40,766 nt of DNA from Candidatus Zixiibacteriota bacterium (GTDB lineage Bacteria; Zixibacteria; MSB-5A5; JAABVY01; JAHJOQ01), in NCBI GenBank assembly GCA_018820315.1, contig JAHJOQ010000016.1:1-40766 (forward strand). Direction: 5' to 3'. Shown here in pieces: positions 4,951-25,852 of the stretch. The first letter of the stretch is position 1; each line of letters starts with the position of its first letter. The position numbers were made by a program, and so were the translations under genes. The notes below the pieces were generated by a model. It was not told the DNA's origin, made no database searches, and worked only from the letters and a program-made list of their open reading frames with translations.

Positions 4951-6092
4951 TGAAGATATTATTCGTTGATGACGAGCCGCATGTGCTTCAGGGTCTGCAA
5001 CGATTTGTGTGCTCTCAGAATTTGGATTGCGAGCACGAAGCAGTGACTTCTGCAGAAGCTGCCCTGGAGCGTGTTGCTGCCGGAGATATTGATGTTGTCG
5101 TCTCGGATGTACTGATGCCGAACATGACGGGAGTCGATCTGCTCGAACGTCTGAAGAATAACCCGGCGACGAGTGACGTACCAGTCATCATGCTAACGAG
5201 TCACGTGGAGCCCATGGAGAAGCGGACCGCGTTACAGCTTGGAGCTTATGACTTTGTGAATAAACCTACGGATCCGGTCGAGTTGGTCGCGCGTGTGCGG
5301 AGCGCTCTTCGCTTGAAAATAAGCGAGGATAAGCTACGTCAGCAAAATGAGATTCTGAAGCGACAATTGAGAATGGAGATAGTCGGTCTCCTTGCAGGGG
5401 GTATGTTTCACGATTTGAATAACATGCTGATGAGCATAGTCGGCCACACCGAGCTCGCTTCCTACCGCGCAATGGGCGATTCTGAGATGGAAGAGAACCT
5501 GAACATGGCGCTGCAATCTGCGGAAAAGGCTTCCAGACTGGTTCAGCAAATACTTCACCTGGGCGGAATACGGAGATCTGAGGCTGACAGCGAGGATCTT
5601 GCTCTTATCGTAGATGATAGCCTACGCCTTTCGGCAATGAGCATTCCTCCTGGAATAAGAATCAAATGGAGCAAGCCTTCGATCAGTGCGACTGTTCGTA
5701 TGGATCGCACTCAGGTATTCCAGGTGTTGGTGAATCTGTGTAGTAATGCGGTAAAGGCCATGAACGGCTCCGGTGAGCTTACGATCAGGCTGACGCAGCA
5801 AAAGATAACGGAAGAGGAAGCTGATCGAGGCGGCGATTTGCATTGCGGTGATTATGTGGTTCTGGAGGTGTCGGATACCGGTGTAGGTATTGATCCGTCA
5901 CTATTGGAGACGATATTCGATCCATTGCTCACAACCAGCGCGGAAGGGAAAGGGAGCGGTTTGGGATTGCTTGTTGTACGCCAGGTGCTGAACAGTATTG
6001 GCGGCTGTGTGCGTGTGCGAAGCGCTCTGGGAGAGGGATCTGTTTTCACAGCCTATTTCCCGTGTGACCAGCGCGGCGATCAGAGTGATTGA
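4947..6092 (+). CDS. Receiver-histidine kinase hybrid
   Basis: The start is placed at the ATG that overlaps the kinase stop by four bases, preceded by a G-rich Shine-Dalgarno; a longer frame begins 15 codons earlier inside the kinase gene. The product is about 381 residues. An N-terminal receiver starts MMKILFVDDEP, with Asp near 54 in VVSDVLMPNMTG and the conserved Lys in NKPTDP. A dimerisation helix follows with His near 155 in GGMFHDLNNMLMS, then HATPase_c with LVNLCSNAVKAM, SDTGVGIDP and GKGSGLGL. A receiver in front of a kinase core is the layout of a relay kinase whose activity is gated by its own receiver. The upstream PAS kinase is the likely phosphodonor. No membrane segments. Confidence 0.95.
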   Translation: MMKILFVDDEPHVLQGLQRFVCSQNLDCEHEAVTSAEAALERVAAGDIDVVVSDVLMPNMTGVDLLERLKNNPATSDVPVIMLTSHVEPMEKRTALQLGAYDFVNKPTDPVELVARVRSALRLKISEDKLRQQNEILKRQLRMEIVGLLAGGMFHDLNNMLMSIVGHTELASYRAMGDSEMEENLNMALQSAEKASRLVQQILHLGGIRRSEADSEDLALIVDDSLRLSAMSIPPGIRIKWSKPSISATVRMDRTQVFQVLVNLCSNAVKAMNGSGELTIRLTQQKITEEEADRGGDLHCGDYVVLEVSDTGVGIDPSLLETIFDPLLTTSAEGKGSGLGLLVVRQVLNSIGGCVRVRSALGEGSVFTAYFPCDQRGDQSD

Positions 6093-6114
6093 GAGTTGGA
6101 AAGAGGGGACGATT

Positions 6115-7320
6115 ATGCAGGCAAAGATACGCATACTGTTTGTTGATGATCAGAAGGATGTTCTTGACGGTCTCAGGCGAATGCTCCACGGACTCCGAAC
6201 CGAATGGGAGATGGAATTTGTCGAGAGCGCGGCCGAAGCACTCACCGCTCTTGGGGAGAAGCACTTCGATGTCATTGTAACCGACATGATGATGCCGGGC
6301 ATGAATGGTGCGGAACTTCTCGAAAAGGCGAGAGAACTCTGTCCGGGAACAGTGAGATATATCCTCTCAGGCTGTTCGGATCGAGAACTGGTGATGCAAT
6401 CGGTAGGAGTTGCGCACAGATACATAGCCAAGCCATGTGACCCTGAGGATCTCAAAGCCATGCTGGCCAGCTCTCTCGGCTTGCGGGAATTGCTTGCAAG
6501 TGAGACTCTTCACAGCAGAATAGCCACAATCAGATCTTTGCCCAGTCCCCCCAATATCTACTTTCAGTTGGTTAGGGAATTGCAGTCGGACAAATCATCA
6601 GTCAAGCACATCGCTGAAATAATCAGCAAGGACGTAAGCCTTACAGCGAAAATGCTCCAATTGATAAATTCGGCTTTCTTCGGCCTGCCTACTCGTATCG
6701 AGAGTCCCCTGCAGGCCGTCAACCTGCTGGGATTGGACACAGTGCGGGATCTTGCGATGATAACTGGAGCTTTCAGTAAGCTGACAAGCGCGAGTCTCTC
6801 CGGCATATCCGTTGAATCGATCTATGCTCATAGCCTCGCAGTTGGGATGGCAGCCAAGAAACTCGCCAGGGAACTGACGCTTCCAAAGCCTATCAGCGAT
6901 GATGCCATGGTGGCCGGTATGCTTCACGACATCGGAAAGCTCGTCCTGCTTGCGCATTTTCGTGATGAGATGAGTGAGGCTATCAAGATAACCAGGGAGC
7001 GGGGCATGTCTCAGCATCTTGCAGAAGCAGAGGTGCTGGGTGTGAGTCATGCTGAGATCGGGGCGCACCTTCTGTCGCTCTGGGGATTACCGGATTCAAT
7101 CCTGGAAGCTGTCGCGCATCATCACAGACCATCCGAAGTCATCGGTTTGAATCGAAACCTACTGACGGTGGTTCACATAGCCAATGGACTGGAGTATGAG
7201 AGTCATTTCGATGACTTCGGGCACTCTCTGTCAAAGCTGGATACTGTGTATCTCGACAGGCTCGGATTGACCAAAGAGTTGCCGGAACTTTGCGACGCCG
7301 TTGGAACGGCGACTAGCTGA
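6115..7320 (+). CDS. Receiver-HDOD domain response regulator
   Basis: The ATG at 6115 is chosen because AGAGGGG sits about six bases upstream and the receiver (QAKIRILFVDDQKD) begins at once. The product is 401 residues: a receiver at 1-120 with Asp near 57 in VTDMMMPGMNG and Lys in IAKPCDP, then an HDOD domain from about 150 to 350 containing HDIGKLVLL (His near 271) and an AHHHRPSE segment. HDOD proteins are non-canonical HD-fold signalling outputs, usually scaffolds rather than proven phosphohydrolases. This is the first of two similar receiver-HDOD proteins in the cluster. It follows the receiver-kinase by 22 bases and its end lies 13 bases before the next start, consistent with one operon. 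Confidence 0.93.
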   Translation: MQAKIRILFVDDQKDVLDGLRRMLHGLRTEWEMEFVESAAEALTALGEKHFDVIVTDMMMPGMNGAELLEKARELCPGTVRYILSGCSDRELVMQSVGVAHRYIAKPCDPEDLKAMLASSLGLRELLASETLHSRIATIRSLPSPPNIYFQLVRELQSDKSSVKHIAEIISKDVSLTAKMLQLINSAFFGLPTRIESPLQAVNLLGLDTVRDLAMITGAFSKLTSASLSGISVESIYAHSLAVGMAAKKLARELTLPKPISDDAMVAGMLHDIGKLVLLAHFRDEMSEAIKITRERGMSQHLAEAEVLGVSHAEIGAHLLSLWGLPDSILEAVAHHHRPSEVIGLNRNLLTVVHIANGLEYESHFDDFGHSLSKLDTVYLDRLGLTKELPELCDAVGTATS

Positions 7321-7333
7321 AAAGGAGCAGGAT

Positions 7334-8554
7334 ATGAGCGATCAAATTGCAGAAAAGATACTAGTGGTCGACGATGATTCCAATTTGCTATCTGCTGTGG
7401 AGCGTCAATTCCGTCGGAAATACACGATGGTGATAGCAGAGGGAGGTAAGGAAGGTATTCGAAAGCTCAAGGAAGAAGGTCCGTTTGCAGTCGTTATCTC
7501 AGATATGAGGATGCCGGATATGAACGGCATACAGTTTCTTGCCCAGGCGCAGGGCATGTATCCCAATACAGTACGGATCATGCTTACAGGCAATGCCGAT
7601 CTCGAAACTGCCATGCATGCGGTAAACGAAGGGAATATCTTCCGATTTCTTCTGAAGCCATGTCACAAGAGCACTCTTGAATGGGCACTCGAGGCTGCGG
7701 TGGAACAGCATCGGCTTCTTTTTGCTGAACGAGAACTGGTGGAGAAGACTTTGAAGGGAAGCGTCCAGGTCTTGACTGACATACTGGCACTTGTTAATCC
7801 GGTCGCATTTAGCCGCATATCTCGGCTTCAGAGCTATGTGTCTGAGATTGCCGAGCGCCTTGAAGTAAAACAGCTCTGGCAATACGAGCTTGCAGCGCTG
7901 CTATCTCAGATAGGTTGTGTGACCATTCCGCCGGATACTCTTGCCAAGTTCTATACCGGCGCGAATGCAACCGCTGAAGAGCGTGAGATGTTCGCCGCTC
8001 ACCCACATGTTGCTGCACGATTGCTCGGACGAATACCACGCTTACGAGTTGTGGCGGAGATGATTGCTGACCAACAAATGGGGCTCCAGGAATTGGGACT
8101 GGCCGAAGATTGTCTGCCGACAGATCCGGGAACCTTGGGAGGACAAATTCTGAGGACTGCGATAGAGTTCGACACTCAAATGTCTCGCGGAAACACAGTC
8201 TCGCAAGCTATGGGACGATTGAAGAGCGCTGCAAAGCCACACCACCCTTTCATCCTTAATACTCTCATGCACATAAGAGTGGTGGACGTGGAGATTGCCA
8301 CAAGGACTGTCAGCGTTAGGGATCTGAATGACACAATGATCCTTGCTGAAAACATCCGCGCACGAAACGGACTCTTGGTCGCAGCAAAAGGCCAGCACGT
8401 GAATTCCTCCATGCGCACACTGCTGAGGAACTATGTCGAGCGGAGGGACCTCCAGGATGGAATCGGCGTCACGGTGCCGATCGGTCACCCAAATGCTGTT
8501 GACAAGATCGAAATGCCTGCCAGCCTGCACAGACAGACTGTGAATCCGGCGTGA
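7334..8554 (+). CDS. Receiver with degenerate HD-GYP-like output
   Basis: The ATG at 7334 follows AAGGAG with a seven-base spacer. The product is about 406 residues. Receiver at 5-120, Asp near 57 in VISDMRMPDMNG, Lys in LLKPCHK. Residues 150-330 have the length and helical pattern of an HD-GYP phosphodiesterase, and segments such as ARLLGRIPRLRVVAEMI align by eye with the family. However, the metal-binding HD dyad is replaced (LLSQIGCVTIP where HDIGKIGIP is expected), and the HHE and GYP motifs are absent. The tail (VSVRDLNDTMILAENI) matches the C-terminal extension common on receiver-HD proteins. I infer a catalytically inactive cyclic-di-GMP-type domain kept for binding or scaffolding. Confidence 0.85.
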   Translation: MSDQIAEKILVVDDDSNLLSAVERQFRRKYTMVIAEGGKEGIRKLKEEGPFAVVISDMRMPDMNGIQFLAQAQGMYPNTVRIMLTGNADLETAMHAVNEGNIFRFLLKPCHKSTLEWALEAAVEQHRLLFAERELVEKTLKGSVQVLTDILALVNPVAFSRISRLQSYVSEIAERLEVKQLWQYELAALLSQIGCVTIPPDTLAKFYTGANATAEEREMFAAHPHVAARLLGRIPRLRVVAEMIADQQMGLQELGLAEDCLPTDPGTLGGQILRTAIEFDTQMSRGNTVSQAMGRLKSAAKPHHPFILNTLMHIRVVDVEIATRTVSVRDLNDTMILAENIRARNGLLVAAKGQHVNSSMRTLLRNYVERRDLQDGIGVTVPIGHPNAVDKIEMPASLHRQTVNPA

Positions 8555-9010: not shown

Positions 9011-10372
9011 ATGAACAAGCGCAAAATACTCGTGATTGACGATGAGCCTGATATCTTGAAAGCAATCGCCTGTCGTCTTGAGGCAACAAACGAGTTCATA
9101 GTAGGCCGCGCGACCGATGGTTATGATGCTGCGTTTATGACTATGGAGGATGACTATGACTGTCTGTTCATCGACATAATGATGCCCGGCTTCAACGGAC
9201 TTGAAGTGTGCAGGAAGCTGAAGAGTCATCCTCATACGGCTGCCGTTCCGATAGTCATCATGAGTGCTGCCTGCGACGAAGAGACAGTGACCGAGGCTAT
9301 AAAGGTCGGAGCGTCAGATTATCTGCGAAAGCCATTCCTTTTGAATGTGCTTGTTGACAAGGCAAGAAAGTGGTCCGGGTACAGCGCGAGAAGAAAGGCT
9401 ATGGGGTCTTCCGATGCTGACTTGCTGCCTCCGAGAGCTGGTAGCGAAATGAATTTACCCAGGCTGGGAAACAATAGTCGTGCGAAAATACGCGAGAGGT
9501 TGACCCGGCGGCTTTTTCTTGGCAGGGCGGAGCTTATCACGAGACGTCTCGGCGAGGTGGTGAACGTCGGCGCAGACCAGCCGCTGGACATTGATCTCCT
9601 GGCTTGCGACATCATGACAGCAGCTGAGCTTTTCATGCTGGCCAATTCGGCTTTTATCGGCGCTCGCTCGGAGGTCTCTGGATTCTCGGAAGCCATAAAC
9701 AGGTTGGGGACAGACAGCGTTGGAGAGAAAATATCCCGTCTTGCGGGGCAGCAGTTAAAGGTGAGAGAGATTACACAGGGGTATATCCTCAATTACTTCT
9801 GGGGACATTCACTTAGCACTGCCTGCATTGCTGAAACTCTTGGCCGTTACACGAATTACAGCAACTCTGAGGAATTGTTCACCGCAGGGCTCTTTCATGA
9901 TGTTGGAAAGCTGTTCTTCGCTACATATTATCCCGAGATATATGTTCACGTGGCCAACACTGAATCTCCACAGCATATGGATATCACTGAGCGAGAGAGA
10001 GATGTCTTTGGCATTGACCACCGCGAAGTAGGCAATCTTATCCTCAAAACATGGCGGTTGCCAGAGGCAGTTCAGAAAGCCTGTCTGCATCATAATCAAG
10101 AGGAGGCTTTTGAAGGAACGAGAGTCAGAGCTATGCTAAGAATCATCTCGGTCGCAAACGAAATCAGCAATGTCGTGATTTCGGAAAAGGGTCCTTCACA
10201 TTCAGTACGGAAAAGCGTGGATGGGCTTCGCGACGTAAGAGACCAAATGGCTTTACCAATAGGTACGATAATGGAGAGCGTCACAAGAAGGATCGCACGA
10301 GTTGCTACTATATTGCAGTTGCCTTCCCCAATTAAGCGTACAACTTCAGACATATTGGACATTGTATGTTGA
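9011..10372 (+). CDS. Second receiver-HDOD response regulator
   Basis: The ATG at 9011 is preferred over a TTG two codons upstream; GGGGGA lies just before. The product is 453 residues. Receiver at 3-125, starting KRKILVIDDEPDILKAI, with Asp near 55 in FIDIMMPGFNG and Lys in LRKPF. A basic linker follows, then an HDOD domain from about 160 to 400 with FHDVGKLFFATYY and CLHHNQEE. Unlike the middle protein of the cluster it keeps an HD-type dyad. It follows kaiB by 84 bases on the same strand. The output of these HDOD domains is not known from sequence. Confidence 0.92.
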   Translation: MNKRKILVIDDEPDILKAIACRLEATNEFIVGRATDGYDAAFMTMEDDYDCLFIDIMMPGFNGLEVCRKLKSHPHTAAVPIVIMSAACDEETVTEAIKVGASDYLRKPFLLNVLVDKARKWSGYSARRKAMGSSDADLLPPRAGSEMNLPRLGNNSRAKIRERLTRRLFLGRAELITRRLGEVVNVGADQPLDIDLLACDIMTAAELFMLANSAFIGARSEVSGFSEAINRLGTDSVGEKISRLAGQQLKVREITQGYILNYFWGHSLSTACIAETLGRYTNYSNSEELFTAGLFHDVGKLFFATYYPEIYVHVANTESPQHMDITERERDVFGIDHREVGNLILKTWRLPEAVQKACLHHNQEEAFEGTRVRAMLRIISVANEISNVVISEKGPSHSVRKSVDGLRDVRDQMALPIGTIMESVTRRIARVATILQLPSPIKRTTSDILDIVC

Positions 10373-10796
10373 AAGTAAGGACACGACAAACTGTCTCATT
10401 CGTCATGGAACATGGCGCTTATGGGCGTGTTCTACAAATCCGTTCTGAGCATCTCTAAGAAGTCAGCCACTCGGAACGGTTTGGAACTATGAATTTTTGG
10501 CATCGAAGGTCACAGGATTGCCTCATCAGTTTCAAAATAAACCGCTCAAGATGTCAAAGCACAACGGTGCTAATGGCTGTCCTGGCTGATGCCCCCGAGC
10601 GAAAGCGCTCAAGATGATGGGATTTCGTGTGGCATGTATGTGCCAACTCCTCACCAAAACAAATCAAACTTCGTCAAAACAGATCGAAACAAATGGACAA
10701 CGTCAGCCGCGGTGCCGCAGAGGCGTACGTGTTAATGCAATAGGCCACAATGTGTTGCAAGAACGTGGCCAATCGAATCCCTGTCCCCCGACCTAA
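10373..10796. other. Non-coding gap before the recombinase scar
   Basis: About 420 bases with no supportable gene. CGCTCAAGATG occurs twice, near 10545 and 10608. GGCCAC...GTGGCC forms an inverted repeat near 10743-10780. The stretch ATCGAATCCCTGTCCCCCG just upstream of 10793 resembles the 3' side of a tRNA (T-loop plus acceptor strand), but a matching 5' T-stem is missing, so it is at best a decayed tRNA end or attachment site. Confidence 0.5.
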
Positions 10797-17227: not shown

Positions 17228-20014
17228 GTGACAAGAAAAACATTGTTAATCGCATTACTTCTCGTCTTGACATCTGCGACGGCATCCGCAGATGATCTCT
17301 ATAAAGTCGCCGTTAACAGCCATGCAGATGCTTTGAGATTGGAAGCTGCTGGCGTCGATCCTCTGTTAAGAGTTGACGGCGGGTTTTTGGTCCTCATAAA
17401 ATCCGGTTCTGAAGCTATCATATCAAGTTCAGGGCTCGATTATGAGCGCGTTGCTGAGGGCATCACGCGCAACCGCATCGCACTTGACATTAGACTTGAT
17501 GGATCAAACATCGGGAAGTTCCCGGTCCTCTATGAAGAAGGCGGAGTTCGTCTTTTGAGAGTGGACCCCGCAGATTTGCAGGCGGAAGCGACTGAAGCTA
17601 TGGGGCTTGCTCCAATACTGACAGAAAACCTCAGGATTACCTACGATGAACCGGTTAAGCTCAGTCTGCAGCGAACTCTCGCCAGGCCGGATCTCGATTC
17701 TCTGATTAGTCTAATCAGCCAGGATTCACTTCAGTCATATGTCGAAGTCCTCGAGTCGTTTCCTCCGCGAGTGACGGGGAGCGCATCGGACTATGCGGCA
17801 CGAGACTGGTGTGTCGGCAAATTGCAGGAATTCGGGTACACGAATGTAGAGTTGGACAGCTTCACGTATAGCTCCAACGCCGTGCAGAACGTGGTGGCCT
17901 ACAAGTACGGAACGGGCCTTCTCGAACATCAAATAGTAGTGGGTGCACATCGAGATGCCGTCTCAGGCTCTCCCGGAGCTGATGACAACGGCTCCGGTAC
18001 CGCAGGTGTTCTCGAAATCGCCCGCGTCCTCAAGGATATCGAGACCGAAATGTCATTCGTATTCATACTCTTCACTGGAGAAGAACAGGGGCTGCATGGA
18101 TCGTGGCATTATGCGAACGAGGCTGCGGCTAATGGCGACAGTATTGTCCTGATGGTGAATATGGATATGATCGGATACGAGGGCAATACCAACGATGTGA
18201 CTCTATACCACAGCTCGGATGCTACCTATGCTCAGTTGTACAAGGACCTCGCCGATTCACTGTCAGGCGTGAGTCTGATCGGACATCTTAGCGGCACTTC
18301 AGCGTACTCGGATCATTATCCATTCCAGCAGAATGGCTATGATGTGGTGTTCACCATCGAGTACAATTTTTCGCCTGTATATCACACTCCCAATGACAAC
18401 TCGAGCTACCTGGATTACACGTATATGGCTCGAATAGTGAAGGGCTGCCTGGCCACAGCATATCAGGTTGATGGCTCATATATACCCGTGCCGGGCCTGA
18501 GCTTCACATATCCGGGTGGAATCCCGGAGACAGTACCTCCGGGTGCGAGCACTGCATTCGACGTCGTAGTTACAGGCTCTTCGGGCGGAGTGCCGGTTCC
18601 GGGGAGCGGTGAGTTGCATTACAAGATAAATGGCGGGCTGCTTATGACCACGCCCATGACCGATCTCGGCGGCGGCAGTTATGAGGCTACGCTTCCGCCG
18701 CTTCAGTGCGTTGATAACAAGATCGAATTCTATGTCAGCGCTCAAGAGCAGACAACCGGGCGGATCTATGATCCTTCGCCATCGAATCCAAACATGGCTG
18801 TAGTAGCCACAGATGTTCAAGTGGCATTCTGGGATGACTTCGAGCTGAATAGAGGCTGGACTGTCTCTGGTGGGCTGTGGTCTCGTGGCACACCGACAGG
18901 AGGAGGAGGGCAGTACGGCAATCCTGATCCATCCGGCGGACATAATTCATTCAATGTTTTCGGTTACAATCTTAGCGGTGATTACGAAAACGACCTGCCT
19001 GAAAGGCACCTCACTAGTCCTGCGATCGACTGCAGCGGGATGGGAGGGGTGAGCCTCAGTTTTTGGCGATGGCTTGGTGTCGAGCAGCCCTCGTATGACC
19101 ACGCGTATGTGCGCATCAGCACCAACGGCACGACATGGACTACTCTCTGGCAGAATACAGAAGAAGTCACAGATGCCAACTGGACTGAGATGTCATTTGA
19201 CATAGCGAGCATCGCCGACGGCCAGGCTACTGTTTACATCAGATTCACAATGGGCACAACAGACGGCTCCTGGCAATACTGCGGATGGAATATCGATGAT
19301 CTTGAGGTCTCTGCTTTTGTCTGCGATGATCAGCCGGATGCGGATGGCGATGGCATAGCAGATTTGGTTGATAACTGTCCGACGACGTACAATCCTGATC
19401 AGAATGACGCCGACGAAGATGGTAGCGGGGATGTTTGCGACGATTGCACCGACACGGACGGCGATGGTTACGGCGACCCCGGATATCCAGCAAACACTTG
19501 CGATCTGGACAATTGTCCTTCGGCGTACAATCCCGGGCAGGAGGATGCTGACGGTGATGCAATAGGCGATGTTTGCGACAATTGCGTTACAGTCTCCAAT
19601 CCGACTCAAGAAGACAACGATTCAGATACAATTGGTGATGCCTGCGATAACTGTATGAGCGCAGCGAACCCCGATCAGGAGGATTCTGACAGCGACACCG
19701 TTGGCGATAGCTGCGACAACTGCATTTATGTCGCAAATCCTGACCAGACTGATACGGACGGTGATGATATCGGCGATGCCTGTGAGTTTGTCTGCGGTGA
19801 CGCCGATGCCAGTGGTATTGTCGACATCGATGACGTTGTCTATCTGATAGCATATATATTCGCATCAGGGCCGGCGCCTGATCCTCTCGAATCGGCTGAC
19901 GCCGATTGCAGCGGCGGTGTCGATATCGATGATGCGGTATATATCATAGGATACATATTCTCCGGCGGTTCTGCGCCCTGCGACACTGATGGGAATGGCG
20001 ATCCAGACTGTTAG
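17228..20014 (+). CDS. Secreted M28 metallopeptidase with TSP3 repeats and dockerin-like tail
   Basis: 928 residues, GTG start with GGAGG eight bases upstream. Signal peptide 1-21. After a propeptide-like region, the M28 zinc peptidase domain spans about 160-420: His 241 in GAHRD, Asp 252 in GADDNGSG, Glu 285/286 in FTGEEQGL, VNMDMIGY, and AYSDHYPF as the last ligand. Then come a beta-sandwich region, a MAM-like jelly-roll at about 535-700 (DDFELNRGW ... CGWNIDDLEV), a run of thrombospondin type-3 calcium repeats at about 705-850 (D-x-D-x-D-G with DNCP), and a dockerin type-I-like pair of Ca loops at the end (CGDADASG ... DADCSGGVD). It probably degrades proteins outside the cell. No cohesin partner is encoded here, so the dockerin may anchor or stabilise rather than build a cellulosome. 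Confidence 0.92.
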   Translation: MTRKTLLIALLLVLTSATASADDLYKVAVNSHADALRLEAAGVDPLLRVDGGFLVLIKSGSEAIISSSGLDYERVAEGITRNRIALDIRLDGSNIGKFPVLYEEGGVRLLRVDPADLQAEATEAMGLAPILTENLRITYDEPVKLSLQRTLARPDLDSLISLISQDSLQSYVEVLESFPPRVTGSASDYAARDWCVGKLQEFGYTNVELDSFTYSSNAVQNVVAYKYGTGLLEHQIVVGAHRDAVSGSPGADDNGSGTAGVLEIARVLKDIETEMSFVFILFTGEEQGLHGSWHYANEAAANGDSIVLMVNMDMIGYEGNTNDVTLYHSSDATYAQLYKDLADSLSGVSLIGHLSGTSAYSDHYPFQQNGYDVVFTIEYNFSPVYHTPNDNSSYLDYTYMARIVKGCLATAYQVDGSYIPVPGLSFTYPGGIPETVPPGASTAFDVVVTGSSGGVPVPGSGELHYKINGGLLMTTPMTDLGGGSYEATLPPLQCVDNKIEFYVSAQEQTTGRIYDPSPSNPNMAVVATDVQVAFWDDFELNRGWTVSGGLWSRGTPTGGGGQYGNPDPSGGHNSFNVFGYNLSGDYENDLPERHLTSPAIDCSGMGGVSLSFWRWLGVEQPSYDHAYVRISTNGTTWTTLWQNTEEVTDANWTEMSFDIASIADGQATVYIRFTMGTTDGSWQYCGWNIDDLEVSAFVCDDQPDADGDGIADLVDNCPTTYNPDQNDADEDGSGDVCDDCTDTDGDGYGDPGYPANTCDLDNCPSAYNPGQEDADGDAIGDVCDNCVTVSNPTQEDNDSDTIGDACDNCMSAANPDQEDSDSDTVGDSCDNCIYVANPDQTDTDGDDIGDACEFVCGDADASGIVDIDDVVYLIAYIFASGPAPDPLESADADCSGGVDIDDAVYIIGYIFSGGSAPCDTDGNGDPDC

Positions 20015-20098: not shown

Positions 20099-20473
20099 TC
20101 ACCCAATCAGTTCTTTGACCTTCTTGAGAAGAGCATCACGATCGACTGGTTTCTCAAAATAACCGGCCGGTGGATGAACCTGCTTTCTCTTCTCGATAAA
20201 TTTCTTGAACTCGGGCGACACACCGGTGATCATGATGACTGGAATTGCACTGGTTTCCGGTGTATCCTGGACATTTCGAAACATCTTGATGCCGGATTCA
20301 TTGTCCATGCTGATATCGAGCGTGATGAGATCCGGTTTTTCGGATTTGGCTTTTTCGAATCCGATTTGTCCATCCTCTGCAGAAATCGTCTCATAGTCAT
20401 TATCTGCAAAGAAGGTCTCCAGCCAGGTGCGCTGGTCTTGTTCATCTTCGACTATCAGAATTTTCTTTGCCAT
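20099..20473 (-). CDS. Single-domain response regulator
   Basis: 124 residues, a receiver and nothing else: acidic pocket KKILIVEDEQDQ, phospho-acceptor Asp in LITLDISMDNESG, Thr in IMITG and Lys in FEKPVD. It is the last gene of the six-gene minus-strand run, 78 bases after the Cys-PAS kinase. AAGGA lies upstream of its ATG. Its segment KRKQVHPPAGYFEKPV closely resembles the matching part of the receiver fused to the iron-sulfur oxidoreductase (YDRHVQPPDGYVDKPI), so the two receivers look like duplicates with a common kinase. With no output domain it must act by protein interaction or as a phosphate sink. Confidence 0.93.
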   Translation of the reverse strand: MAKKILIVEDEQDQRTWLETFFADNDYETISAEDGQIGFEKAKSEKPDLITLDISMDNESGIKMFRNVQDTPETSAIPVIMITGVSPEFKKFIEKRKQVHPPAGYFEKPVDRDALLKKVKELIG

Positions 20474-20551: not shown

Positions 20552-21979
20552 CTACTTTTCCGGCGTGACTGGAGTTTTGGGTTGTTCGCGTGGAAGAGTC
20601 ACAACAAAGCGAGTCCCTTGGTCAGGTTCAGATTCCAGCCTTATTTTGCCGGAGTGTGATTGGACAATCTTGTTCGCAATGAATAGCCCGAGTCCTGTCC
20701 CTCCGGATCCTTTTGATGAAAAGAACAATGTGAACGCCTTCTGTCTGGTCTCTTCGTCCATGCCGATGCCATTGTCTGTTACTTCGAACACAACTTCGTC
20801 ATCAAGTCCACTCGCTTTAAATGTGATTGTGTGTGTGTCCTTCTTCTTGTCGACCCTGCATGCATCGATGGAATTATCGATCAGATTAACCAGCATAGAT
20901 CGAAGAGCCTTGGCGTCCGCTTGAAATACAGCTGCCGATGGATCAACCTGCGTATCGAAACTGATGTTGTGATCTTTGGCCTTCGCTTTCATTACATTGA
21001 AGACTTCCTGAACGACAGATTCAGCAACGATTTCTTCTAAGATCGGCTCCCTGTCCTTGGCATAGTACAGAATATCGAGCACTGTGCTCCGAATCCTATC
21101 GACGTTGCGAAGCACCATTTCCCAGCCGGTCGAAACCCGCTTCTGGTCTTCTTTCTTGAGGCCGGTATCTACCAGGTAGATGCCGCCGTCCATGCCGTTG
21201 AGAAGCCCCTTGAGATCATGCGAGATTGTACTGATTATCATTCCGACATCCGAGAGTTTCGATTGGAGCTGTCGGATCGCCGTTATATCTGTGCTCATTT
21301 CGATTACGGTCTCGATGTCTCCGTCAGCATTGTGCACAGGCGCCGTCGTTACAATCACATTCATGCGCTCGCCGTCGCGAGATGTCACAACTTCCTCGTG
21401 GGTGCGAGTCTGTCCATCTTCGAATGTGTGTCTTACAATGCAGGGCTGACATTCTGTCGCGCGCCTCTTGTACACCTCATAGCACTTCCCGCCGTAAGAA
21501 GTGCCGAAGGCTTCTCTATGGAATCGATTAGCCTCCACGATGCGAAGGTCACGATCCTGCATGGATATGAAACAGGGGACTTCCTCGAATAGCAGTCGGT
21601 ATTTCTCCTGACTCTCTTTGTGTTGTTTCTGCAGAAGCTTGATCTCTGTGACATCCGTTGACATTTCCATGACTGCTGTGATTTCTCCAGCCTCATTTCG
21701 AATCGGAGTGGTGTAGACTACAACCCAGACTTCTCTGCCGTCAAGTGTGTAGACGCGTTCCTCGCTTCGATGCCGCTGACCGTCGTGGAAAGTCCGCTCC
21801 ACCGGGCAGATTTCACACTTCTCCGGACGCTGCTTGTAGATTTGATAGCAGAACCGCCCTTCGAATGCTCCAAAATCAGTCACGAACCGTTCATTTGCAT
21901 CGATGATGTTAAGTTCCCGGTTCTGGACCGTGAGATAGCACGGCATTGAATCGAAGTAGCTTCTGTAGTCGTTCTCCAT
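20552..21979 (-). CDS. Soluble histidine kinase with two cysteine-bearing PAS domains
   Basis: 475 residues with no membrane helices. Two tandem PAS domains (about 1-115 and 125-240) share an unusual set of cysteines: a Cys in the first strand (SMPCYLTV, EVPCFISM), one in GRFCYQIYK / GGKCYEVYK, and a CxxC just after it (KCEICPVERTF, ECQPCIVRHTF). The kinase core follows: His in ISTISHDLKGLLNG, N box LVNLIDNSIDAC, G1 TDNGIGMDE, F box FTLFFSSKG, G2 GGTGLGLFIA. The cysteine layout repeated in both PAS domains suggests metal, cofactor or thiol-redox sensing (inference). It lies 18 bases after the iron-sulfur oxidoreductase gene and probably phosphorylates its fused receiver and/or the downstream regulator. 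Confidence 0.93.
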   Translation of the reverse strand: MENDYRSYFDSMPCYLTVQNRELNIIDANERFVTDFGAFEGRFCYQIYKQRPEKCEICPVERTFHDGQRHRSEERVYTLDGREVWVVVYTTPIRNEAGEITAVMEMSTDVTEIKLLQKQHKESQEKYRLLFEEVPCFISMQDRDLRIVEANRFHREAFGTSYGGKCYEVYKRRATECQPCIVRHTFEDGQTRTHEEVVTSRDGERMNVIVTTAPVHNADGDIETVIEMSTDITAIRQLQSKLSDVGMIISTISHDLKGLLNGMDGGIYLVDTGLKKEDQKRVSTGWEMVLRNVDRIRSTVLDILYYAKDREPILEEIVAESVVQEVFNVMKAKAKDHNISFDTQVDPSAAVFQADAKALRSMLVNLIDNSIDACRVDKKKDTHTITFKASGLDDEVVFEVTDNGIGMDEETRQKAFTLFFSSKGSGGTGLGLFIANKIVQSHSGKIRLESEPDQGTRFVVTLPREQPKTPVTPEK

Positions 21980-21997: not shown

Positions 21998-23761
21998 TCA
22001 CTTCTTCTTGCCGGAGACCTTCTTCTCGTGAGCAAGCTCCAGTATTCTCCTCACGCTCAAAAGCAGATGTTCTTCATTTATCGGCTTATCTACATAACCA
22101 TCCGGTGGCTGAACATGGCGGTCATAGATAAGCTTACGGAGTTCCGGCTGTCCGGTGATTATGCAGACAGGTATCGATTTCAGCTCTGGGTCATTGCGCA
22201 TTACCTCAAATACATCCGACCCCGACATGCCCGGCATCGAGAGGTCGAGCGTCATTAGGTCCGGCATTTCTCTACGAGCGATCTCGACTGCTTCATCTCC
22301 GCTGTGAGCCTGCAGCACCGTGGCGCCATTATCTTCTAATATTGCTGATGCGAAAATGACAAAATCGGGCTCATCGTCGGTGACGAGAATCTTGTATCCG
22401 GCGAGGTCACCAACCTCGGCAACTTCGGGAATCTCCGGCACAACTTCCACGACCTTCTTCTCGATCACGAGTGCATTGGCTACCAGATTGACGAGCTGTG
22501 TGACCGGCATCCCAAGCTTGTAGTGCTTGATCAGGTCGTTCAGGCCGTCGACGCAATTGTGACACGATGTGACAACGATCTCGGCTCCAGTTGCCGTGAG
22601 CTGATCAGCCTTAATCTTCGCGGACTTCAACCTGCGCGGAGTATATTCCGACATCGACATTGCACCACCGCCGCCCGTACAGCAGTAGTTTTCCGAACGG
22701 TTGGGGTACATCTCCCTGAAGTCTTCGCAGACGAGCTGAAGAAGTTCTCTGGGTTCCTCATACAGGCCGCAGCTTCGCGCATTGTTGCAGGAGTCGTGGA
22801 AGGTCACCGGTGTCTTGTTCTTGCTTTTATCTACTTTGATCCTGCCGTCTCTGATATAGCGGAGCATTGTGATGACTGAACTCTCCATTTCAAAGTTGAT
22901 GTCGACACCGCCCCAGTTCTGCCCCTCGCAGCGAGTTGATCTGTAACCATGACCGCATTCTGAAATTACGAGCTTCTTGCCTCGAAGCTCCTCGACCTTC
23001 TCATAAAGCCGTCGTGCAACAGCGCCACCGAGGTCATCATCTCCCGAAAACAGGCCGAAGTTAGTCATGTCCCAGCCTTCGCTGGGCATTGTCCAGTTCT
23101 CGCCAGCCTGATAGAAAATCAGAGCGGCATCGGAGATCGTGCGCGGATCGTATTTTGCTTCACGCGGGTTGATTGAGTAGACAACATCCACGTCTTCTCT
23201 GTCGATAGGGATGATCGCGTTCGGATCGCCGTACTCTTCTTTCATCTCATCTGAGAGCCATTCGAGTGTGTCGAGGTAGTCTTCCTTGAGAACACCCATC
23301 TGATTGCCGATCTCCCATTGGTCTTTGCTGACAACTGCTACGCCCTCCGGCATCACACCGACAGAGACCAGCAAGCCACGCGCCATGCGGTTGAAAGTAG
23401 CGTAGTCGACTCCCATCGGGCAATTGATCGAGCAACGTCTGCAGTTCGTGCACTTGCCGAAGACAGTGTCCTTGAGTTCCTCAAGTTGCTCGTCAGTGTA
23501 GAGGCTCTTGGCTTTCACCCACCAGGGCAGCACCCGTCCGGTCCAGTCGTAGTGCCTCTTGAAAAACTTCCTTATCTGGTCGGCCTTGTATGCTGGAGCA
23601 TAAGTCGGATCCCCCGGATTTGCAAGCACGTAGTGGCATGCATCGGTGCACATGCCGCAATGAACGCACGCGACAAGTGACCCGACTATCTGACGATTCA
23701 GTTTTTTGCCTAACCTGTCAATCACCATCTGAGCTTTATGTGATCTTGTTGTATTTGCCAT
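21998..23761 (-). CDS. HdrD/TmcB-like iron-sulfur oxidoreductase fused to a receiver domain
   Basis: The start is set at the ATG with GGAG six bases upstream; a frame four codons longer lacks a ribosome site. 587 residues. Two 4Fe-4S motifs of CxxCxxCxxxC type (Cys 32/35/38/42 and 104/107/110/114), a linker, then CCG-type cysteine-rich domains: the first degenerate (SECGHGYRS near 268, HDSCNNARSCG near 325), the second good (NYCCTGGGG near 360, with TSCHNC near 400). This is the layout of HdrD, DsrK, TmcB and HmcF, which pass electrons between a membrane cytochrome b and soluble carriers or thiols. Residues 456-575 are a complete receiver with Asp near 506 (LMTLDLSMPGMSG) and Lys in VDKPI. 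The preceding gene encodes the cytochrome-b-like membrane partner. The fusion implies phosphorylation could control the oxidoreductase, or its redox state could affect signalling. Confidence 0.93.
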   Translation of the reverse strand: MANTTRSHKAQMVIDRLGKKLNRQIVGSLVACVHCGMCTDACHYVLANPGDPTYAPAYKADQIRKFFKRHYDWTGRVLPWWVKAKSLYTDEQLEELKDTVFGKCTNCRRCSINCPMGVDYATFNRMARGLLVSVGVMPEGVAVVSKDQWEIGNQMGVLKEDYLDTLEWLSDEMKEEYGDPNAIIPIDREDVDVVYSINPREAKYDPRTISDAALIFYQAGENWTMPSEGWDMTNFGLFSGDDDLGGAVARRLYEKVEELRGKKLVISECGHGYRSTRCEGQNWGGVDINFEMESSVITMLRYIRDGRIKVDKSKNKTPVTFHDSCNNARSCGLYEEPRELLQLVCEDFREMYPNRSENYCCTGGGGAMSMSEYTPRRLKSAKIKADQLTATGAEIVVTSCHNCVDGLNDLIKHYKLGMPVTQLVNLVANALVIEKKVVEVVPEIPEVAEVGDLAGYKILVTDDEPDFVIFASAILEDNGATVLQAHSGDEAVEIARREMPDLMTLDLSMPGMSGSDVFEVMRNDPELKSIPVCIITGQPELRKLIYDRHVQPPDGYVDKPINEEHLLLSVRRILELAHEKKVSGKKK

Positions 23762-23806
23762 ATCTATCTCCATTCAGAGTCTGAGGTCGCTGTCATCAAG
23801 TCCGTT

Positions 23807-24481
23807 CTATTGACTGATCCTCTCGATCGGGTACACACCCCGTCGTCCCATTGTCTTGCCGAAATAATACCGAGTGAACGGATAGTACAGATAGTGCGAG
23901 ATCTTGCTGAACGGCACGTAAATCAGGAAAAACGCAGTCAGAACGAAATATGTCAGCAGAATTCCTTCACCACCGCCTGTTTTGTTAGGAACGGACAGGA
24001 AAGCAAACGCGAACCATCCAGTCAGCAGCAGAAGCGAAAAGTAATCGTCAGGTGAACTGATTGCCCGCATGTACTTGTCAGATATTCTTCTATAGATGCG
24101 AAGTACGCCGACCAGACAGGCTGCTCCTATCACAACCTGAAGAATCATGACCAGGCCGGACGATTCCAAAAGTCTGGGCGCATAGGGAATTACAAACGAA
24201 AGTCCAATTGCAGCCGTGACTCCCAGATGAAAAATCACGAACTGGATGTATAGAAAGGACTTCGTGCGAGTGCTTTCCATTGCCCAGGGCATTGCGACGT
24301 TCGCCCATGAGTAAATGAACCCCTTCCGCGAATTCGTGTCGCCTCGACCGGTCGGAGCCTGACGCTCCTTTCCGGCTTTGAACCGCAGCAGCCATGTGAG
24401 GCGAGCCGTATAAACCAGCGCCATGATGACAAGCGCGACTTCCTGCAGCGTATGTTCTGCGAAATGTAAGGTCTCAACCAT
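23807..24481 (-). CDS. NarI/DsrM/TmcC-like membrane cytochrome b subunit
   Basis: 224 residues, about five transmembrane helices (near 12-32, 75-100, 108-128, 145-163, 172-192). Histidines near helices (LHFAEHTLQ, FVIFHLGV, SKISHYLYYP) are placed like heme-b ligands in the nitrate reductase gamma/DsrM/TmcC group, and the last motif resembles the conserved FSKxxH-YP ending of that family. AAGGAG precedes the ATG. It would sit in the inner membrane and exchange electrons with the quinone pool, handing them to the adjacent HdrD-like subunit 33 bases downstream. No cytochrome c or other catalytic subunit is encoded beside it, so donor and acceptor remain open. Confidence 0.85.
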   Translation of the reverse strand: MVETLHFAEHTLQEVALVIMALVYTARLTWLLRFKAGKERQAPTGRGDTNSRKGFIYSWANVAMPWAMESTRTKSFLYIQFVIFHLGVTAAIGLSFVIPYAPRLLESSGLVMILQVVIGAACLVGVLRIYRRISDKYMRAISSPDDYFSLLLLTGWFAFAFLSVPNKTGGGEGILLTYFVLTAFFLIYVPFSKISHYLYYPFTRYYFGKTMGRRGVYPIERISQ

Positions 24482-24491
24482 TGTTTCTCCT

Positions 24492-25082
24492 TTATGCGTT
24501 GCCTGACGATGCGAGTTCTGACTGAAATGGTCTGTACTCCCTCATATCATTAAGGCATATCACAACGTCACGAATTCCTGTCTCGCCATTCAGATAGGAT
24601 GCGATTGTCTTGATAGTGATTCTGGCGCTGACATCAAGCGGAACTCCGTAGAAGCCTGCACCCATAGCAGGGAATGCGATAGCCTTGATTTTCCTATCCT
24701 CTGCCTTCTGGAGTGCGTTTTTTATTGTCTTCCTGAGTTTCTCCTCCAGATCCTCTTCCTGGAATCTCGGACCGACCGCGTGAATGATGTACGTGGCTTT
24801 CATATCACCTGCGGCAGTAACGACAGCCTCAGTGGTTTCTAGCGTACCAAGTGCTTTCAGCTCCTGCTGGACTGTCGGTCCGCCTCTCATGCTTATTGCA
24901 GTGCCGAAACCCGATCCGAGAGCCAAATCATGCTGGGCGTAGTACACAAATGACTCAATCTCGATGTCGGTTATATCGGCCTTCATCAGACGCAAGGTGC
25001 TGTTCTTCACTTGAAGCGTGTCCGACATATCTGAATCTCCTCTCAAGTCTGTCCGCTGATCAACGCTTGTTCGATTCGTCAT
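24492..25082 (-). CDS. Macrodomain protein (ADP-ribose binding or hydrolysis)
   Basis: Macrodomain over nearly the full length: LRLMKADITDIEIESFVYYA, GFGTAISMRGGPTVQQEL, YIIHAVGPR and the GAGFYGVPLDVSARI phosphate loop are all family landmarks. Such proteins bind or remove ADP-ribose or O-acetyl-ADP-ribose. The typical NAAN strand is changed to VYYAQHD, so catalytic de-ADP-ribosylation is less certain than binding. The longest start overlaps the upstream regulator stop (ATGA) with GGAG seven bases before it; an internal ATG at 25028 has a stronger AGGAG and would drop an 18-residue leader. The gene lies 10 bases before the cytochrome b gene, so it belongs to the redox operon and may link it to NAD metabolism (inference). 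Confidence 0.88.
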   Translation of the reverse strand: MTNRTSVDQRTDLRGDSDMSDTLQVKNSTLRLMKADITDIEIESFVYYAQHDLALGSGFGTAISMRGGPTVQQELKALGTLETTEAVVTAAGDMKATYIIHAVGPRFQEEDLEEKLRKTIKNALQKAEDRKIKAIAFPAMGAGFYGVPLDVSARITIKTIASYLNGETGIRDVVICLNDMREYRPFQSELASSGNA

Positions 25083-25852
25083 CAGGCGTCTCCGTTCGGT
25101 AGTTTAGCTGGTCCTTCTATCAAGTCCTTCAATTGTCTGAGCGTGAAAGGCTTGATTATCCATCCAAATACTTCACTGTCACAATAGTCTTTCATCTTTG
25201 CGTTCCTGGAGGTTAGGATAATTCGCATCAACGGGATTCGCTCATCATCGGTCAGATGATGACAGATGTCTCTTGTGCGGGCCGCACCAAATGAGCAGTC
25301 TATTATAGCATAGTCAGGTCTGAATTGTTCGATCAGCGCCGCGCATTCGTACTCACTGGATGCGAACTTGATCGTCAGCTCTTCATCACTGGCTCCTGAC
25401 AATAGTCTCGCCAGATTCTTGTTGCGGCTCACGATCATCGCGCTTGTGCCGTGGTGCGCCATTGTCCTGTAATACTCGCACTCCTTGCAGTCCGTCTCGC
25501 AGTGCAGCTTGAGGTGACCAAACTGTTCAGGAATATCCCTCATCTCGTAGCAGCGGCGCGCACGGCTACGGTAGGCGACACATTTGTGACACTGATCTTC
25601 GATCTCACCATCGCAGGCATAAAAATCCCAGCAGTACTTGAATGCTGCATCTGCATCCGGGACGACAACTGCGTGCTCAGCGGGAACTCGTTCCGGAAGG
25701 AGCGATACCACCGCAGCTTTTGGAATTCGCGCATGTCCCCCGGGAGTTCGATAGGAATCGATTTTGCCGGCACGTACCCATTTCAATACGGTGTCGGGAG
25801 AAACCGAGAGGAGTTTCGATGCTTCGGTCGTTGTATAATAGTCTTCTGCCAT
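25082..25852 (-). CDS. BldC/MerR-like HTH regulator with Cys-rich centre and receiver-like C-terminus
   Basis: 256 residues in three parts. Residues 5-50 are an excisionase/MerR-type winged HTH (TTTEASKLLSVSPDTVLKW, RTPGGHARIP), most like single-domain BldC. Residues 70-128 carry eight cysteines (74, 80, 88, 91, 101, 118, 122, 125), including a CWDFYAC motif like the CW pairs seen in some redox-linked signalling proteins; they could hold iron-sulfur or zinc. Residues 137-250 fold like a receiver (Asp near 185 in AIIDCSFG, Lys in WIIKPF), but the acidic pocket residues are missing (AMIVSRNKN), so ordinary phosphorylation is doubtful. It is the first gene of the redox-signalling run and the likely regulator. 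Three 9-base direct repeats lie just upstream. Confidence 0.85.
   Translation of the reverse strand: MAEDYYTTTEASKLLSVSPDTVLKWVRAGKIDSYRTPGGHARIPKAAVVSLLPERVPAEHAVVVPDADAAFKYCWDFYACDGEIEDQCHKCVAYRSRARRCYEMRDIPEQFGHLKLHCETDCKECEYYRTMAHHGTSAMIVSRNKNLARLLSGASDEELTIKFASSEYECAALIEQFRPDYAIIDCSFGAARTRDICHHLTDDERIPLMRIILTSRNAKMKDYCDSEVFGWIIKPFTLRQLKDLIEGPAKLPNGDA

Follow-up and report, generated by a model that had tools for sequence, protein, structure and literature searches.

DsrC is a central carrier of sulfur in the respiration of sulfate and sulfite, and to our knowledge a partnership with DsrC has been demonstrated only for HdrD-type proteins other than the one described below (DsrK and HdrABC). 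Dissimilatory sulfite reduction ranks among the major processes worldwide; little is known of the post-transcriptional control of its electron flow. Among the closest described systems, DsrK and DsrM of DsrMKJOP comprise a CCG protein with two [4Fe-4S] motifs and a NarI-like cytochrome b in dsr-bearing hosts, and HmcF/HmcE and TmcB/TmcC of Desulfovibrio combine an HdrD-type fold with a NarI-like membrane partner and have response-regulator genes nearby, all traits shared with the locus described here. DsrMK acts on the DsrC-trisulfide in sulfate reducers, and dsrM2/dsrK2 paralogues have been reported in Acidobacteria (PMC6018796); Dsr synteny has also been surveyed (PMC10504309). At the Desulfovibrio hmc locus the regulators are rrf1 and rrf2 (PMC10924467), and DVU0259 is numbered close to tmc, DVU0263-0266 (PMC10920352).

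The window analysed here, a stretch of 40,766 nucleotides from a Candidatus Zixiibacteriota genome, carries a compact minus-strand operon of six genes extending from 25852 down to 20099, as delimited by open reading frames and Pfam matches (Table 1). The gene order is HTH_17/Cys-rich/pseudo-receiver, macro, NarI-like membrane protein, HdrD-receiver fusion (HdrD-REC), Cys-PAS kinase and REC-only regulator (RR2); the first two genes overlap by 1 nt, and the later gaps are 10, 33, 18 and 78 nt. The initial annotation had described an HdrD/TmcB-like protein fused to an intact receiver, which is borne out by one 591-aa ORF with conserved Fe-S cysteines, D510 and K563, and it rightly placed a kinase gene just downstream. 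Its interval of 21998-24481 takes in HdrD-REC, but the portion from 23807 belongs to the NarI-like membrane protein; similarly, the cytochrome b and kinase had been seen, but the HTH/Cys/pseudo-REC gene, the macro gene, the second response regulator and the link to sulfite reductase were left out. Adjoining the operon on the opposite strand (17228-20014) is a gene for a 928-aa M28-type peptidase-like protein with thrombospondin-3-like and dockerin-like C-terminal repeats.

Table 1. Genes and domains of the HdrD-REC operon in the window
Feature	Coordinates	Strand	Evidence
HTH_17/excisionase-type DNA-binding protein with Cys-rich middle and degenerate receiver	25082..25852	-	Pfam HTH_17 above cut-off, Response_reg weak
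Macro-domain protein	24492..25082	-	Pfam Macro, 97 bits
NarI/HmcE/TmcC-like membrane cytochrome b	23807..24481	-	NCBIfam HmcE/TmcC, below cut-off
HdrD-REC fusion, 591 aa	21998..23773	-	Single ORF; Pfam, NCBIfam
HdrD/HmcF-like part, residues 1-440	22454..23773	-	Cys conservation in at least 80/81 orthologues
Receiver domain, residues 461-579	22037..22393	-	Pfam Response_reg, 64.6 bits
Soluble histidine kinase, two Cys-PAS, H-box H254 and HATPase_c	20552..21979	-	Pfam
REC-only response regulator (RR2)	20099..20473	-	Pfam; nearest NCBIfam family DVU0259, below cut-off

In HdrD-REC, three Pfam domains score above their cut-offs: CCG, Fer4 and Response_reg. The HdrD part contains two [4Fe-4S] motifs (Cys 36/39/42/46 and 108/111/114/118) and a CCG site formed by Cys 329/335/364/365/404/407, together with C273/C282. 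CCG-type domains had been claimed in the plural, and the second is indeed complete, but the first retains only CGH plus C282; two [4Fe-4S] motifs and one complete CCG Cys set place the protein within the broad HdrD-type CCG definition. Over residues 16-440 the nearest NCBIfam families are HmcF (337 bits; cut-off 750, NF045711), TmcB (320 bits; cut-off 735, NF045724) and DsrK (249 bits; cut-off 400, NF045796), and identity with any of the three proper was rejected on these scores. With an acid pair (D466/D467), a phospho-acceptor (D510, codon 22244-22246), T540 and K563, the fused receiver carries the complete response-regulator residue set of acid pair, Asp, Thr/Ser and Lys. An AlphaFold model of the whole protein has a mean pLDDT of 80 (moderate), with a low-confidence linker at about residues 440-455; its receiver is CheY-like, with Foldseek matches that include DivK and RR468. 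The Foldseek match of the HdrD part is a LutA/LutB model, and a PDB search with this part returned a single clear relative, 9ojn.

The upstream NarI/DsrM/TmcC-like subunit of the initial annotation is present, but of the four haem-ligating histidines it retains just two. H85 and H196 are found in 79/79 sequences, with no further invariant His, and align with NarI H56/H205, whereas DsrM/HmcE-type paralogues aligned alongside keep four. In NarI the ligands are H56, H66, H187 and H205, the H56/H205 pair holding the cytoplasm-near haem. A canonical di-haem NarI/DsrM-type cytochrome b was thus rejected, because the distal His pair is missing and only equivalents of H56/H205 remain, a state already reached in unfused relatives. 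Without the distal ligands the subunit is a poor candidate for a normal two-haem transmembrane quinol oxidase, and a two-haem path through it across the membrane is unlikely. Electron exchange with quinone is still possible through the one remaining haem, although the missing pair leaves bulk electron flow less certain.

In the first gene of the operon, which is probably a transcription regulator, C74, C88, C91, C101, C118, C122 and C125 are conserved amongst 41 homologues; a homologue lies upstream of the module on the same strand at 17/67 loci, and an Rrf2-type gene is common at the remaining ones. Macro domains are an ADP-ribose-binding fold. Here YYAQ replaces the canonical NAAN motif while the LGSGFGTAI loop is retained, and altered Asn motifs occur elsewhere (FYAQ, FYAR, YYAT) although the macro gene itself is invariant in the operon. 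Both C-x10-C-x2-C motifs of the kinase (C44-x10-C55-x2-C58 and C166-x10-C177-x2-C180) and H254 are invariant in 73 homologues.

Two further loci of the window's genome carry related genes. On contig C105 (L039, 6399-9989) a paralogous cassette encodes an HTH/Cys/pseudo-REC protein, a DsrC variant, a four-His cytochrome b and an HdrD protein; the DsrC variant (LFPCG...GAYRLAGLPRPYGCL) has Tyr at the penultimate conserved Cys and a new Cys nearby, and cassettes of this type with the identical Cys shift are found at L122 and L144. On contig C13 (L038, 1-10167) an Hmc-like locus encodes an HdrD protein nearest DsrK/TmcB, a cytochrome b, a ferredoxin and a multihaem/NrfD-like fusion, as well as a Cys-PAS kinase and three response regulators; judged from its gene content, it gives the genome a second electron-transfer complex served by a dedicated two-component system.

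A scan of one genome per species kept 80 loci (164 relatives) at 65-85% identity, the named records being metagenome assemblies only. The fusion is thereby found in at least 15 NCBI phyla, counting labels that may be wrong for metagenome bins: Zixiibacteriota, Myxococcota, Acidobacteriota, Thermodesulfobacteriota, Planctomycetota, Calditrichota, Gemmatimonadota, Electryoneota, LCP-89, Pseudomonadota, Poribacteria, Hydrogenedentota, Ignavibacteriota, Elusimicrobiota and Bacteroidota. Within Zixibacteria, 34/133 genomes, from 11 families, contain whole copies or clear fragments, identity being mostly 74-84%, and several copies sit on single-contig chromosomes. Amongst orthologues covering each site, D510 is conserved in 80/80, K563 in 79/79 and T/S540 in 80/80, D466/D467 are kept in essentially all, and the cysteines of both [4Fe-4S] motifs and the CCG site in 80-81 of 81. 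The recurrence of the fusion with the cytochrome b and Cys-PAS kinase that had been predicted was found across many phyla: at testable loci the partners of HdrD-REC are the cytochrome b (77/77), the macro gene, always at the same place (74/74), the kinase (67/69) and RR2 (52/69).

The HdrD-REC module is Dsr-associated, as seen in its co-occurrence with dsrAB. In Zixibacteria, dsrA is present in 31/34 genomes with the fusion versus 22/99 without it (p=7e-13, uncorrected for shared ancestry), and in Acidobacteriota in 12/12 fusion genomes versus 20/384 others (p=9e-15, likewise uncorrected), with 0/36 amongst Acidobacteriota carrying receiver-less homologues. In a further set of fusion genomes, almost all from other phyla, dsrA scores above cut-off in 44/50, compared to 0/14 control genomes. 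Furthermore, in Zixibacteria (L081, L154) and Syntrophaceae (L120, L138, L139, L142, L149) the module is part of a dsr cluster and begins immediately downstream of dsrC. For instance, the order at L081 is dsrA-dsrB-dsrN-dsrL-dsrC-[macro-cytb-HdrD_REC-HK]-dsrM-K-J-O-P, and at L139 dsrA-dsrB-dsrN-dsrC-[macro-cytb-HdrD_REC-HK] followed by DsrK-type genes and dsrO; in the window's genome the dsr cluster is on a different contig (C65) from the module. The 22 Zixibacteria and 20 Acidobacteriota that bear dsr and no fusion indicate that the fusion is not required for Dsr metabolism. A strict link to DsrD, the reductive marker, was dropped, since only 11/50 fusion genomes encode it, and the direction of sulfur metabolism is therefore not readable from DsrD. 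Tandem DsrC-DsrC proteins adjoin the module at L122 (Gemmatimonadota, 6077-6724) and L144 (Elusimicrobiota, 9757-10503); these proteins, of 215 and 248 aa respectively, apparently lack the C-terminal Cys in both halves.

Relatives in which the receiver is not fused bear on the origin of the arrangement. Receiver-less relatives in Zixibacteria have a canonical dsrC directly upstream of cytb-HdrD at 11/11 loci and no dsrA, and in Acidobacteriota dsrC is nearby, mostly adjacent, at 10/11 loci fetched. A cysteine desulfurase family gene is convergent to unfused DsrC-cytb-HdrD operons at L073 (6008-7180), L065, L067 and L071, hinting at a sulfur-transfer role in those dsrA-free genomes. In Thermodesulfobacteriota L183-L185 the order is cytb-HdrD-REC-HK-RR, the receiver being encoded on its own directly after HdrD, which is the pre-fusion state; L186 is arranged similarly, and a second response regulator follows the kinase in three of these four loci. 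Scores of the window's receiver against the separate RECs are 285 (L186), 273 (L184), 234 (L185) and 229 (L183), all above the 214 obtained with the RR2 of its own operon; the fused receivers moreover form one clade, a lineage distinct from the main RR2 group, so that an origin by copying of RR2 was rejected. A first tree unites the sampled close fusions in one clade with full support and puts DsrK rows in a distant clade; in a second tree, seven related Thermodesulfobacteriota HdrD proteins lacking a fused receiver nest within the fused proteins, suggesting that the receiver was probably lost there. In 5/7 of these loci, genes for a response regulator and a Cys-PAS kinase follow downstream after a few intervening genes, the contigs of the other two being too short to cover that region. 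That one lineage encodes REC on its own, between the genes for HdrD and the kinase, argues that receiver and HdrD act together, and the separate, adjacent and fused states jointly provide good evidence that the two function as a unit.

The earlier proposal of a respiratory module coupled to phosphorylation therefore stands as to coupling, which the recurrence and the separate-REC lineage support well, but 'respiratory' is too vague, as dsrAB association and dsrC adjacency point more specifically to Dsr sulfur metabolism with a DsrC-type substrate. The best reading of the module, to which we would give about an even chance, makes it a membrane-anchored thiol/disulfide oxidoreductase that belongs to Dsr-type sulfur metabolism and is under two-component control. 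The one-haem cytochrome b would anchor the HdrD part at the membrane, and the enzyme would connect a DsrC-type protein with the (mena)quinone pool, electrons most likely travelling by way of quinone, haem b, [4Fe-4S], CCG site and thiol. The cytosolic Cys-PAS kinase would sense a redox or sulfur signal and phosphorylate the fused receiver, thereby changing the activity or assembly of the oxidoreductase; RR2 would be a second kinase target and may relay the signal elsewhere, as may an HTH or Rrf2 regulator in loci that have one. Phosphotransfer from the operon kinase, the DsrC substrate, the quinone partner and the direction of control are the steps that we infer, and the reading gives the macro domain no role, which counts against it. 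It is possible, at somewhat less than even likelihood, that phosphorylation of the fused receiver directly switches the activity of a Dsr-linked oxidoreductase on DsrC, and that this is common to many phyla.

A chance fusion or assembly artefact of two adjacent genes is effectively refuted. Frames are broken or shifted in L078 (G023, 6061-8361) and in L036/L154, the latter giving one or two metagenome-assembled genomes with a break between the parts, but these are probably sequencing errors; the in-frame fusion occurs in about 100 independent loci at 65-84% identity, its receivers form one clade, and dozens of independent assemblies, single-contig chromosomes included, exclude the unique or missed-stop case that would have undone the initial annotation. 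It is unlikely, although worth weighing, that HdrD and the one-haem cytochrome b act instead as a redox sensor that would read the quinone pool or the redox/persulfide state of DsrC and inform the receiver and kinase, leaving bulk flux to DsrMKJOP. Consistent with this, one haem pair is left in the cytochrome b, DsrMKJOP is additionally present in the window's genome (C65), and the operon genes are mostly regulatory, with a second receiver retained at most loci. However, a complete catalytic CCG site with all its cysteines exceeds the needs of a sensor, the kinase already has its own in the Cys-PAS domains, and receivers fused to enzymes are normally inputs. Less probable still is an ordinary Tmc/Hmc-type respiratory complex whose receiver would serve docking or stability only and whose two-component genes would act on transcription alone, as rrf1/rrf2 do for hmc (PMC10924467). 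HmcF/TmcB are the nearest families of the HdrD part and RR2 is nearest the DVU0259 family, encoded near tmc by its numbering (PMC10920352), but none of the six operon genes encodes a periplasmic multihaem cytochrome c or an NrfD-type protein, half of the haem ligands are gone, and an invariant phospho-site would be superfluous for mere docking.

The open-licence literature yielded no receiver fused to an HdrD-type or other iron-sulfur electron-transfer protein and no two-component system tied to DsrC/HdrD, and the passages searched in PMC10924467, PMC6018796 and PMC10504309 contain no mention of a receiver-fused HdrD or a kinase/macro module. The module may have gone unnoticed because all 80 named records examined are metagenome assemblies, and the fusion may mark out a sizeable group of dsr-bearing bacteria, most of them uncultured. 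These observations suggest that global sulfite-respiration metabolism is directly wired to a seemingly undescribed bacterial signalling system. If true, a two-component system directly controls a respiratory electron-transfer protein across many phyla. The conserved, dsrAB-tied receiver fusion makes the question of electron-flow control directly testable with two purified proteins, for which the natural unfused forms are ready controls.

Compared to Hmc and Tmc, the module has no HmcA/TmcA or NrfD partner and a cytochrome b with one haem pair, its receiver is fused, and a macro gene and kinase lie inside the operon. DsrK differs in having no receiver and falling in a separate clade, and DsrM-type paralogues in having four His. 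Unfused DsrC-cytb-HdrD units (L065-L075, L190-L197, L199, L200), whose HdrD is 38-62% identical to the fusion, share the one-haem cytochrome b (shown for L065-L075, L190 and L193) but are without a receiver, macro gene or associated Cys-PAS kinase, and their host genomes are without dsrA. In PleD, CheB and RpfG a receiver is likewise covalently joined to a catalytic domain, whereas HdrD-REC has an iron-sulfur electron-transfer protein as its catalytic part. It was already known that receiver genes occur close to Hmc/Tmc loci and that dsrMK has paralogues; the fusion of a receiver to HdrD and the kinase/macro module appear to be new, judged by the passages searched.
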